Shown: positions 9,856-13,456 of the stretch, piece by piece
How positions within the stretch are numbered: position 1 is the stretch's first letter
Layout: every line of letters starts with the position of its first letter
From: Pseudacidovorax intermedius
Lineage (GTDB): Bacteria; Pseudomonadota; Gammaproteobacteria; Burkholderiales; Burkholderiaceae_C
NCBI RefSeq assembly: GCF_001476815.1
Contig: NZ_LDSL01000051.1
Coordinates: 1-64,000, forward strand
Length of the DNA stretch: 64,000 bases
Direction: 5' to 3'
The notes under the pieces: model-generated
Databases searched by the model: none
The model's input: only the letters and a program-made list of their open reading frames with translations
What the model was told of the DNA's origin: nothing
Made by a program: the position numbers and the translations under genes

Positions 9856-10638
9856 TCACGCACCGGCTTTCGAGACGGGCGCCGGCACCGCGGCGCCCTG
9901 GTCGTCCACGGCGTCTTCGGGCTCCGGCGGGCCCGCGTCCCAGATGAGCCGCGGATCGAAGCTCAGCGAGGCCAGCATGGTCAGCACCACCACCGCGCCG
10001 AAGGCCCCGATGCCCAGGCCCGCCTGCACCACGGCAAAGCCCTGGATGCGCACCAGCCCGGCCAGCAGCGCGACCACGAAGACGTCCAGCATCGACCAGC
10101 GGCCGATGAATTCCAGCACCTGGTACAGCCGGGCCCGCTCGCGCTGGCGCCAGCGGCTGCGGCGCTGGGTGGTGACCGCGAGCACCGCCAGCGCGGCCAG
10201 CTTGAACAGCGGCACCAGGAAGCTGGCGGTGAAGATCAGCGCCGCCAGCCCGTAGGAGCCCGAGATCCAGAAGAAGATGATGCCGCTGAGGATGGTGTCC
10301 TGCTGCGTGCCGAGCAGGCTCTTGGTGATCATCACCGGCAGCAGGTTGGCCGGCAGGTAGAGCGCCGCCGCGGCGATCAGATAGGCCCAGGTGCGGCGCA
10401 GGCTGTCGGGCTTGCGCTCGCGCAGCCGGGTGCCGCACAGCGCGCAGGGCTCGCCCGGGCGGGCGCCTTCCCACACGCTGGCGCAGCGATGGCAGTCGAG
10501 CAGGCCGGCATCGTGCGCCGTGACGATGGCGCCGCCGCCCTGTTCGACGCTCAGGTGCGGGCTCGCACGGCCGGCCAGGCGGGCGAGGCGGTCGCGCGCC
10601 GCCAGGGCGCGGCCGATCGGACGCGACGGGCCGCTCAC
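9856..10638 (-). CDS. pqiA2: PqiA-domain inner-membrane protein, second of two
   Basis: 260 residues with a zinc-ribbon-like pair of CxxC motifs (LDCHRCASVW and CALCGTRL) followed by about four transmembrane helices (AYLIAAAALYLPANLLPVMI, GLAALIFTASFLVPLFKLAAL, the RWSMLDVFVVALLAG segment, and FGAVVVLTMLASL). In E. coli PqiA both halves are one polypeptide; here the two homologous halves are separate genes. The GTG at 10638 overlaps the stop of the upstream gene (GTGA), so the pair is translationally coupled. The protein likely loads lipid into PqiB at the inner membrane. Confidence 0.86.
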   Translation of the reverse strand: MSGPSRPIGRALAARDRLARLAGRASPHLSVEQGGGAIVTAHDAGLLDCHRCASVWEGARPGEPCALCGTRLRERKPDSLRRTWAYLIAAAALYLPANLLPVMITKSLLGTQQDTILSGIIFFWISGSYGLAALIFTASFLVPLFKLAALAVLAVTTQRRSRWRQRERARLYQVLEFIGRWSMLDVFVVALLAGLVRIQGFAVVQAGLGIGAFGAVVVLTMLASLSFDPRLIWDAGPPEPEDAVDDQGAAVPAPVSKAGA

Positions 10639-11306
10639 CGCCCGCCTCCGGCCTCGGCCAAGCCTTCGCGCTCGAAGGCCATCTCCCAGAAGCTGCGCGG
10701 GTCGAAGGACAGCAGCGAGGTCAGCAGCACCGTCAGCCCGACGAAGGCCCACAGCGCCGGCCCGACGACCACCGTCGCCATGCCGAAGAGCTTGACGATG
10801 GCGACCAGCACGCCGAGCAGGAACACCTCCACCATGCCCCAGGGTCGCAGCGACTGCAGCGCCTTCACCAGCACCGCGAAGCCGGGCGGGCGGCGCGGCG
10901 CCGCCGCTACGCCGCCGGTCCGGCCCGCGCCCCACACCAGCGGCGCCGCCTGCAGATAGAAGAGGATGCACAGCTGTGCCAGCGGAAAGAGCAGCGTCGT
11001 CGCCAGCACCAGCAGCGCGACGGGCGACATGCCCTCGCCCGCCAGCACCACCACGGCGCCGGCCAGCGTGGTCTGGCTGCTGCGGCCCTGCAGCTCGATT
11101 TCGACGATGGGGAACAGGTTGGCGATGGCGAACAGGATCAGGCTGGCCAGCGTGAGCGGCAGTAGGCGTTCGCGTTGCTGGCCGGGATGCCGCGCCAGCT
11201 CCGTGCCGCAGCGCGGGCAGTGGGCGATTTCGCGCGGCCGAAGACGCGGCGTGCGAAATACTGCATCGCATCCCTCACAGACCGTCACATCACGCACCAG
11301 CTTCAT
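10635..11306 (-). CDS. pqiA1: PqiA-domain inner-membrane protein, first of two
   Basis: 223 residues: two CxxC pairs at the N-terminus (VCEGCDAVF and HCPRCGTEL), then membrane helices LTLASLILFAIANLFPIVEI, VALLVLATTLLFPLAQLCILFYL, and GMVEVFLLGVLVAIVKL. LFPIVEIELQG is typical of the PqiA family. The ATG at 11306 was chosen because it precedes the conserved zinc-ribbon segment directly; an in-frame start 17 codons upstream adds no homologous sequence. It is the first gene of pqiA1-pqiA2-pqiB-pqiC and its promoter must lie in the 153-bp gap shared with the divergent DUF2239 gene. Confidence 0.86.
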   Translation of the reverse strand: MKLVRDVTVCEGCDAVFRTPRLRPREIAHCPRCGTELARHPGQQRERLLPLTLASLILFAIANLFPIVEIELQGRSSQTTLAGAVVVLAGEGMSPVALLVLATTLLFPLAQLCILFYLQAAPLVWGAGRTGGVAAAPRRPPGFAVLVKALQSLRPWGMVEVFLLGVLVAIVKLFGMATVVVGPALWAFVGLTVLLTSLLSFDPRSFWEMAFEREGLAEAGGGR

Positions 11307-11411
11307 CGGCCGGGATTCTGCCCAAACGCGCTGACGGCAGCCGGGCCTGCCCGTCACCAGCCCCCGGCATCCGGCGACCAGAACCGGCGTAGGACAAATG
11401 CCGGCTTGTTT

Positions 11412-11453
11412 TTACCCGGGCATATTGCAACCGTGATTTCAGCCGGGTAATAT
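11412..11453 (+). promoter_or_regulatory. Promoter with overlapping dyad upstream of the DUF2239 gene
   Basis: TTGCAA (11425-11430) and TAATAT (11448-11453) are separated by 17 bases, a good sigma-70 match. The predicted transcript start falls at about 11459-11460, which is the A of the start codon. A perfect inverted repeat, TTACCCGG (11412-11419) and CCGGGTAA (11443-11450), brackets the -35 and overlaps the -10, as a repressor operator would. I do not recognise the regulator. Confidence 0.5.
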
Positions 11454-11459
11454 TTGGCG

Positions 11460-12035
11460 ATGACCGACGCCACTTCGACCCCAGGGCTCACGGCCTTTCT
11501 GGGCTGCACGCGCATCGCACAGGGCCCGCGCGAGCGCGTGCTCGCCGACCTGCGCCGGCGCAACGACAACCCGCCCGCCCTGGTCTTCGACGATGCGAGC
11601 GGCGAGCGCGTGGAGCTGGACCTGTGGTCCACGGCGCCCGCGCCTGCCGCCGACGGCGGCGCGCGGCCGGCCCGCGGCGTCGGCCGGCCGCGCCTGGGCG
11701 TGGTGGCGCGCGAAGTCACCCTGCTGCCGCGCCACTGGGACTGGCTCAGCCGCCAGCCGGGCGGCGCCTCCGTGGCCCTGCGCCGGCTGGTGGAGGACGC
11801 ACGGCGGGTCTATGCCGACCGCGACGCCGCGCGTGCCGCCCGCGAAGCCGCCTACGGCTTCATGAGCAGCGTGGCCAGCGCCCTGCCCGGCTTCGAGGAA
11901 GCGTCCCGCGCGCTCTTCGCGGGCGATCCGGAGCGCTTCGCCGCGCATCTGAGCGGCTGGCCCGCCGACGTGGCGGACTACGCCCGGCACCTGGCCCGCG
12001 GCGCCTGGGCGGCCGTCCCGGAGCAGGCCTCGTGA
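11460..12035 (+). CDS. DUF2239-family protein
   Basis: 191 residues matching DUF2239: LTAFLGCTRIAQGPRERVLADL near the start, ALVFDDASGERVELDLW, and the central GRPRLGVVAREVTLLPRHWDWLSRQPGGASVALRRLV segment. There is no signal peptide or membrane helix. Function of the family is unknown. The ATG at 11460 has no Shine-Dalgarno sequence and coincides with the predicted transcription start, so translation may be leaderless. Its stop overlaps the start of the MATE exporter (GTGA), so the two are co-translated; a link to export of a toxic compound is possible but unproven. Confidence 0.82.
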   Translation: MTDATSTPGLTAFLGCTRIAQGPRERVLADLRRRNDNPPALVFDDASGERVELDLWSTAPAPAADGGARPARGVGRPRLGVVAREVTLLPRHWDWLSRQPGGASVALRRLVEDARRVYADRDAARAAREAAYGFMSSVASALPGFEEASRALFAGDPERFAAHLSGWPADVADYARHLARGAWAAVPEQAS

Positions 12036-13456
12036 GCGGCCGCCCGCCGCTGGACGCCGCGCCCGCCCACGCCCTGCCTGCGGCCCCGCCAGGGGGCGCC
12101 GCCCTGCCCGATCCCTCGCGCCCGCTGTGGAAGACCTTCCTGTTCTTCCTGCTGCCCATGCTGCTGTCGAACGTGCTGCAGTCGCTGTCGGGCACCGTCA
12201 ACAACATCTACCTGGGCCAGATGCTGGGCGTGCGCGCGCTGGCGGCCGTCTCGGGCTTCTTCCCGGTGATGTTCTTCTTCATCGCCTTCACCATCGGCCT
12301 GGGCGCCGGTGCCTCGGTGCTGATCGGCCAGGCCTGGGGCGCGCGCGAGCCCGAACGGGCGCGGGCCGTGGCCGGCACCGCCCTGTCGGTGGTGCTGGTC
12401 TTCGGCCTCATGGTGGCGGTGTTCGGCGGCCTGTTCACCCGGCCGCTGCTGCATGCGCTGGGCACCCCGGCGGACATCCTGCCGGACGCGACGGCCTATG
12501 CCCGCATCATCCTGATCGCCATGCCGGGGCTGTTCGTCTACCTGCTGTCCACCGCCATGCTGCGCGGCGTGGGCGACACGCTGACGCCGCTGTACACGCT
12601 GCTCATTTCCACCGGCACCGGCCTGCTGCTGACGCCGGCGCTGATCCGCGGCTGGGCCGGGCTGCCGCAACTGGGCGTGGCCAGCGCGGCCTGGGCGACC
12701 GTGGTCGGCTTCGTGCTCGCCAGCCTGTGGATGGGCCTGCACCTGCGCCGCCGGCGCAGCCCGCTGGCCCCTGACCGGGCGCTGCTGCGCCATCTGCGCA
12801 TCGACTGGACGCTGCTGCGCGCGGTGCTCAAGGTGGGCGTGCCCACGGGCGTGCAGATGATCGTGATCTCGCTGGCGGCGGTGGTGCTGCTGTCGCTGGT
12901 CAACGGCTTCGGTTCGGACGCCACGGCGGCCTACGGCGCGGTGAACCAGGTGATCGCCTATGTGCAGTTTCCGGCCATCTCCATCGCCATCACCGCCTCG
13001 GTGCTGGGGGCGCAGGCCATCGGCGCCGGCCGCGCCGACCAGCTGGGCCGCATCACGGCCACGGCGCTGGGCATGAACCTGGCGCTCACCGGCGGGCTGG
13101 TGCTGCTCGCCTACCTGGCCTCACGGCCGCTGATGGGCCTGTTCATCACCGACCCGGCGGTGATCGAGGTCGCGCAGCAGCTGCTGCACATCATGCTGTG
13201 GAGCCTGGTGGTCTTCGGCATGGGCTCGGCGCTGGCGGGCGTGATGCGCGCCAGCGGCTCGGTGCTGGTGCCCACCGCCATCACCATCGGCGCCGTGCTG
13301 CTGGTGGAGGTGCCCGCCGCCTGGTGGATGAGCCACCGCTTCGGCCTGCAGGGCATCTGGATGGCCTACCCCCTGGGCTTCTGCGCCATGCTGCTGATGC
13401 AGACGGCGTACTACCGCGGGGTGTGGCGGCACAAGAGGATCGAGCGGATGGTGTGA
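12032..13456 (+). CDS. MATE-family multidrug efflux transporter
   Basis: 474 residues with about twelve membrane helices. Family marks include FFLLPMLLSNVLQSLSGTVN at helix 1, NIYLGQMLGVRALAAVSGFFP, IGLGAGASVLIGQAWGARE, and in the second half GVPTGVQMIVISLAAVVLL. MATE proteins expel cationic drugs using Na+ or H+ gradients across the inner membrane. The GTG start at 12032 overlaps the DUF2239 stop. A Pro/Ala-rich 35-residue lead precedes helix 1. It converges on the lyase gene with a 30-bp gap. Substrate not predictable. Confidence 0.9.
   Translation: MSGRPPLDAAPAHALPAAPPGGAALPDPSRPLWKTFLFFLLPMLLSNVLQSLSGTVNNIYLGQMLGVRALAAVSGFFPVMFFFIAFTIGLGAGASVLIGQAWGAREPERARAVAGTALSVVLVFGLMVAVFGGLFTRPLLHALGTPADILPDATAYARIILIAMPGLFVYLLSTAMLRGVGDTLTPLYTLLISTGTGLLLTPALIRGWAGLPQLGVASAAWATVVGFVLASLWMGLHLRRRRSPLAPDRALLRHLRIDWTLLRAVLKVGVPTGVQMIVISLAAVVLLSLVNGFGSDATAAYGAVNQVIAYVQFPAISIAITASVLGAQAIGAGRADQLGRITATALGMNLALTGGLVLLAYLASRPLMGLFITDPAVIEVAQQLLHIMLWSLVVFGMGSALAGVMRASGSVLVPTAITIGAVLLVEVPAAWWMSHRFGLQGIWMAYPLGFCAMLLMQTAYYRGVWRHKRIERMV

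Follow-up and report, generated by a model that had tools for sequence, protein, structure and literature searches.

The window, a stretch of 64,000 nucleotides from Pseudacidovorax intermedius (contig NZ_LDSL01000051.1), contains an operon in which a gene of the DUF2239 family precedes a gene for a MATE efflux transporter (Table 1). The DUF2239 protein matches PF09998 over profile positions 2-182 of 182 with 212.6 bits (cut-off 25), and the transporter is assigned by the MatE and TIGR00797 profiles, both above their cut-offs. The GTG start of the transporter gene overlaps the DUF2239 stop by 4 bp, an arrangement that bears out the efflux operon of the original prediction. Pfam scans of further neighbours returned two proteins of the PqiA type, one MlaD and one of the PEP-mutase type, and a known regulator was not found among the five neighbouring window proteins scanned. 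One PqiA-type gene (10635-11306, minus strand) is divergent from the operator region. A terminator-like stem with a T-rich tail is located at 11384-11404, just upstream of the first operator palindrome; one such stem was found where 0.5 were expected.

Table 1. Features of the DUF2239-MATE operon and its promoter region (window coordinates).
Feature	Position	Strand	Basis and remarks
Operator palindrome O1, TTTTACCCGGGCATAT	11410..11425	+	Just 5' of the -35 element, one base common to both
-35 element, TTGCAA	11425..11430	+	Sequence; TTGAC in 33/49 aligned sites
Operator palindrome O2, TTTCAGCCGGGTAATA	11437..11452	+	Overlaps the -10 element; centre 27 bp from the O1 centre
-10 element, TAATAT	11448..11453	+	17-nt spacer from the -35 element; ends six bases before the ATG
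DUF2239 gene (PF09998, 191 aa)	11460..12035	+	Pfam E = 5.3e-63; predicted leaderless; proposed autorepressor
Conserved core GRP[KR]LGVV.RE[VI]TLLPRHW[DE]WL..QPGGAS..LR[KR]LV, codons 75-111	11682..11792	+	71-row alignment
MATE efflux transporter gene	12032..13456	+	Pfam MatE E = 2.8e-58; TIGR00797 E = 1.1e-72

The TTGCAA-N17-TAATAT promoter that had been predicted directly before the DUF2239 gene is present, and the same promoter with its sites recurs upstream of DUF2239 in other genera and phyla. A generic promoter scan of the window (threshold 9) called no promoter at 11425-11453 because the two hexamers agree with the consensus at 8 of 12 positions only, and the case for the promoter therefore rests on its conservation. 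The stretch before the ATG, TTGGCG, is not a Shine-Dalgarno sequence. In all 15 genus members the first in-frame ATG lies 6-10 nt downstream of the -10 element, which leaves no room for a Shine-Dalgarno sequence, and the five members with a distance of 10 nt would carry a leader of a few bases. The DUF2239 mRNA of the window is accordingly predicted to be leaderless, as first proposed, from a geometry that is kept throughout the genus. The same short distance was found in 21 of the 71 loci that have a palindrome in reach (among the best 80 of 587, described below), some of them from acidobacterial, armatimonad and verrucomicrobial records; of the remaining 50 loci, 42 have their first in-frame ATG 12-41 bases after the -10 element, some with a Shine-Dalgarno-like stretch. 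Start codon and hexamer were picked mechanically in this comparison, and six of the 71 rows (L054, L083, L091, L103, L111 and L116) have no usable start or an implausible one.

The original prediction further described a dyad covering the promoter, with arms TTACCCGG and CCGGGTAA. Both arms are present (11412-11419 and 11443-11450). The window holds two matches to TTACCCGG, both at this dyad, where 0.32 are expected; since 2 of 100 shuffles also give two matches, the arms by themselves stand out only slightly. The search elsewhere in the genome that had been recommended found the exact dyad (gap of up to 30) nowhere else in 5.5 Mb. What did not stand is the single operator with a 23-bp gap. 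Comparison with relatives revealed each arm to be one half of its own palindrome, TTTTAYCCGGRTAAAA, and the operator is now read as two separate palindromes, O1 and O2, a reading made plain by relative L021, which has a third copy. The palindromes flank the -35 element and O2 covers the -10 element. The consensus from 49 aligned sites, AATTTTACCCGGGTAATATTGAC-N5-AATTTTACCCGGGTAAAATT, has the order palindrome, -35, spacer, and palindrome over the -10. We regard it as virtually certain that the sites and the promoter are real.

Conservation of the dyad, the lack of which had been named beforehand as a refutation, turned out to be strongly favourable. We compared 80 loci, the best 80 of 587 confirmed, for which two peptide patterns from the DUF2239 core had served as seeds, and counted pairs above a score threshold set for this purpose with a centre spacing of 25-30 bp. 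The pair lies between -260 and +60 of the DUF2239 match in 60 of these loci. In 8 further loci, from Variovorax, it lies 514-985 bp upstream of DUF2239, where it heads a GIY-DUF2239-MATE operon. The pair thus precedes the DUF2239 gene or the operon that contains it, the place of an autoregulator's operator, at 68 of the best 80 of 587 loci, and no additional pairs were found in their 650,780 bases. Single palindromes, or palindromes at another spacing, were seen in 11 of the other 12 loci; the twelfth (L043) is truncated where its contig begins. The centres of the 60 adjacent pairs are 26-29 bp apart (28 bp in 31 pairs, 27 bp in 17), with a closer spacing of 18-20 bp in a few loci (L018, L065, L080, L087 and L256); relative L024 has a similar layout with CCATGG and CCGTGG centres. 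Among the record titles of the 80 are Burkholderia, Bradyrhizobium, Serratia, Sorangium and Candidatus Chloroploca, together with one Melainabacteria bin and bins titled as acidobacterial, verrucomicrobial and armatimonad, all bins being open to contamination. A window-like MATE gene follows DUF2239 on the same strand at 36 of the best 80 of 587 loci, and the pair is kept in 40 of the 44 without one. Where scanned, the neighbours in loci without MATE vary (alpha/beta hydrolases, an RPE65-type oxygenase, a SpoIIE-type protein and several without a match), and no recurring regulator was seen among the neighbours in the loci scanned. In one locus, L106, a gene of the LysR type follows DUF2239 at a distance of about 500 bp.

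To follow the site beyond these loci we used R1, a sequence-only model of 49 sites upstream of DUF2239 (the window and 48 of the 60), which matches the window at 11409-11458 with E = 4.2e-8. Because R1 was built from such sites, its matches at DUF2239 genes are partly circular; the near-absence of the site from genomes without DUF2239 is not. Among 60 relatives, an R1 match was obtained in 19 of 23 genomes with DUF2239 versus none of 37 without (Fisher 4e-12). A draw of 299 genomes across the phylum, which has some genomes in common with the relatives, gave matches in 24 of 26 versus 4 of 273 at E<=0.01, the four being weak, partial matches with E between 6e-4 and 0.0095, and in 18 of 26 versus 0 of 273 at E<=1e-4. 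At most 94 candidates per genome (relatives) or 19 (phylum draw) were scored under strict filters, so that sites may have been missed in genomes of both kinds. DUF2239 genomes without a match are G034 and G068 in the phylum draw and G005, G029, G030 and G034 among the relatives; on inspection G005, G029, G030 and G068 have variant, single or closer palindromes, and none was seen in G034. The site tracks DUF2239, not MATE or the GIY-YIG-like gene.

Sites away from DUF2239 are few. At E<=1e-4 the phylum draw yielded 22 distinct sites, 15 of them at DUF2239 genes or operons, with GIY-YIG-like genes and MATE genes accounting for 2 each and other enzymes for 3. For the DUF2239 genomes of this draw, 14 unlinked sites were listed at E<=0.01, and all of them were taken: 7 lie upstream of a GIY-YIG-like gene, 3 upstream of a MATE gene and 3 upstream of genes for unrelated enzymes, one each of alpha/beta hydrolase, short-chain dehydrogenase and SnoaL type; no clear gene follows the last site (L236). 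As judged from the sites, these genes form a small putative regulon. The three enzyme-linked pairs (L225, L227 and L228, at G262:C35, G320:C18 and G320:C8) come from two genomes of the phylum that belong to other classes, and precede the hydrolase gene, the SnoaL-type gene, from which a GFA-type gene diverges, and the dehydrogenase gene. They suggest a wider detoxification regulon.

The most frequent unlinked target resembles the GIY-YIG nuclease I-TevI. The profile of the family matched the I-TevI catalytic domain chains 1ln0 and 1mk0 with E = 1e-10 (1ln0_A), a similarity to a solved domain of the GIY-YIG superfamily; two members scanned against Pfam had no match. Unlike I-TevI, the regulon protein, a putative nuclease, stands alone with about 110-130 amino acids. 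Its gene occurs in 13 of the 60 relatives, all 13 of which have DUF2239. The window's own genome has one other strong palindrome (C168:11305), which precedes this gene by about 148 bp and covers a putative -10 element, TAAAAT, with TTGATC further upstream. All 11 genus members in which the gene was found keep a palindrome 143-155 bp ahead of it, and in each of them the gene is on a different contig from DUF2239. One such site (G006:C190, E = 0.006) is the only R1 match among the relatives away from DUF2239. In the other two relatives (L268 and L269) the gene follows DUF2239 and lacks a separate site. Two further near-palindromes of the window's genome, C31:7597 with a CCCAGG centre and C292:26661, were set aside as probable chance. 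Between operator and GIY-YIG-like gene, a leader of about 130 nt (C168, around 11166-11305, minus strand) occurs genus-wide (L257-L267), with a strong first hairpin, long invariant blocks and length differences, some of which are not divisible by three. No Rfam family matches it in the three loci scanned (best E 0.19, below the cut-off), and the leader is a candidate structured RNA.

Since an operator kept across phyla is nearly confined to genomes that have DUF2239, the family is best explained as its reader, and on these comparisons DUF2239 is probably the regulator. An operator over the promoter, as originally predicted, is supported. The repressor had been taken to be an unknown protein; it is instead most likely DUF2239 itself, because the site follows DUF2239 and neither MATE nor GIY-YIG. 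That a separate, unlinked transcription factor binds the pair, with DUF2239 a mere target such as an efflux accessory protein, would agree with the want of a recognised DNA-binding domain in DUF2239 and with the other genes in the regulon. We consider it improbable, as the site is essentially absent from genomes without DUF2239 (none of 37 relatives and four weak matches in 273, under capped scoring) and its sequence is kept across phyla, so that such a factor would need to be passed on together with DUF2239 without exception. The scanned neighbourhoods hold no recurring regulator, and DUF2239 genes without MATE still have the site.

A second alternative keeps the same binder and reverses the sign: DUF2239 could be an activator or dual regulator that recruits polymerase from O1, with O2 serving autogenous feedback. 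The position of O1 upstream of a weak -35 element (TTGCAA) in the window would suit such a role, but O2 overlaps the -10 element in the aligned sites, the genus has a single good palindrome at its GIY-YIG promoter, placed over the putative -10, and the near-consensus TTGAC of 33 of the 49 aligned sites should need no activator, all of which makes activation quite improbable. The idea that the dyad is an inverted repeat due to chance, or resembles a terminator, can be dismissed almost entirely: the arms are short (8 bp) and the double match to TTACCCGG was reached in 2 of 100 shuffles, but the dyad is conserved across phyla, the pair arose in one of 3950 shuffled upstream regions, which refutes chance, and the palindromes lie upstream of the predicted start and would therefore be absent from the transcript.

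The core of the DUF2239 protein is nearly invariant over 71 sequences and, like the operator, across phyla, a conservation that is partly built into the 80-locus set because the loci were seeded by core peptide patterns. Genes found by Pfam are a fairer sample, as most of the alignment loci were seeded by parts of the core, and GRP[KR]LG is present in 18 of 18 such genes (18 of 26 genomes). One alignment (A2) holds the window and 19 of 24 further loci of the relatives; the 71-row alignment (A3) consists of the window, 8 of those loci and 62 of the 80; and L027, a weak match (E = 2e-5) with one internal stop, was left out. Genome G034 has a diverged second DUF2239 copy (L026, contig C23) in which the GRP[KR]LGVV stretch is missing and which no good operator precedes; this copy has perhaps lost DNA binding.

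An AlphaFold2 model of the monomer (mean pLDDT 80.6) has a small alpha/beta domain (residues 10-44), helices at 90-97 and 102-138, and three more helices. Residues 57-82, modelled with low confidence, are probably a disordered linker, and contain R-G-x-G-R-P-[KR], which we take to resemble an AT-hook motif. The core with its hook-like GRP[KR] is our proposed DNA-binding region. As for AT-hook proteins of the HMGA type, A/T tracts are at hand, flanking CCGG in the palindromes; unlike these proteins, DUF2239 has a single hook ahead of a helical domain, and binding in the minor groove is hypothetical. At E values up to 10 DUF2239 is the only Pfam family that the window protein matches, with no recognised DNA-binding domain; in four other members there are weak matches, the best with E = 0.03, to an antitoxin Xre-like N-terminal family. 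Foldseek with the first model returned nothing from the PDB at E<=0.001. VIA-align with the second gave middling matches, the best (Z = 6.8) to pectin methylesterase inhibitors over the helical part, and the best hit of a PDB sequence search was a designed protein with E = 0.94.

A ribbon-helix-helix fold was suggested by REVTLLP-RHWEWL-GGASVALRRLV; in profile comparison 8 of 100 column shuffles outscored the real profile. The likeness to Arc, MetJ and CopG lies in a short extended stretch, a short helix, a second helix of the GxSxxLR type and paired sites; unlike their DNA-reading strand, the alternation in REVTLLP fits poorly by eye. Aligned with RHH_1 by hhalign, DUF2239 scored 11.3 over the second helix only, in a comparison with 20 of 28 matches (8 were dropped as their loci are cut short, and two of the 20 are identical). 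RHH_4 had no match in the 15 genus genomes. Ribbon-helix-helix chains were not among the matches listed in the fold searches, which carries little weight; the models, all of monomers, cannot form the two-chain ribbon. We keep this fold as a less probable reading.

We propose that DUF2239 is most likely a local autogenous repressor that reads the conserved site ahead of its own operon; if it is the regulator, repression as its mode is highly probable. We infer that DUF2239 binds the operator, a dimer occupying each 16-bp palindrome. The two sites, about 28 bp apart, would sandwich the -35 element with the second over the -10, and through this placement the bound protein would exclude RNA polymerase from the -35/-10 region. 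A toxic compound sensed by DUF2239 may release it from the DNA, whereupon DUF2239 and MATE would be expressed together from the leaderless mRNA, MATE being translated via the 4-bp overlap, to give a self-limiting switch. The one further site in the genome would control the GIY-YIG nuclease-like gene on another contig.

In the literature searched, with most subscription journals outside its reach, no mention of DUF2239, PF09998, COG3644 or IPR018715 was found. Searches with the DNA motif gave no title about such an operator among the matches listed, and in three regulator papers (PMC9820535, PMC5401885 and PMC5711951) the motif matches are primers. Nothing was found for ribbon-helix-helix with MATE and autorepressor or for leaderless with MATE and repressor, and GIY-YIG with MATE gave no relevant title among the matches listed.

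A widespread family would thereby gain a concrete proposed function, that of a sequence-specific autorepressor, together with its putative exact DNA target, and the highly conserved operator offers a ready-made probe. An efflux pump and a GIY-YIG nuclease-like protein are linked under one proposed switch, and this link suggests a response to a DNA-active toxic compound. On balance we find it fairly likely that DUF2239 founds a new family of DNA-binding autorepressors, spread across many phyla with its own operator, which controls a stress module of MATE and GIY-YIG-like proteins and, in some other genomes of the phylum, detoxifying enzymes; we picture it as an AT-hook-like hook joined to a helical core of undescribed fold.

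The closest parallels are the efflux autorepressors of the TetR/AcrR and MarR families, in which the gene for a small protein likewise adjoins that for a drug pump, the promoter is covered by a palindromic operator and the regulon is very small. Unlike them, DUF2239 gives no match to those Pfam families, shares its operon with the pump, and has two palindromes at near-fixed spacing and a predicted leaderless start.
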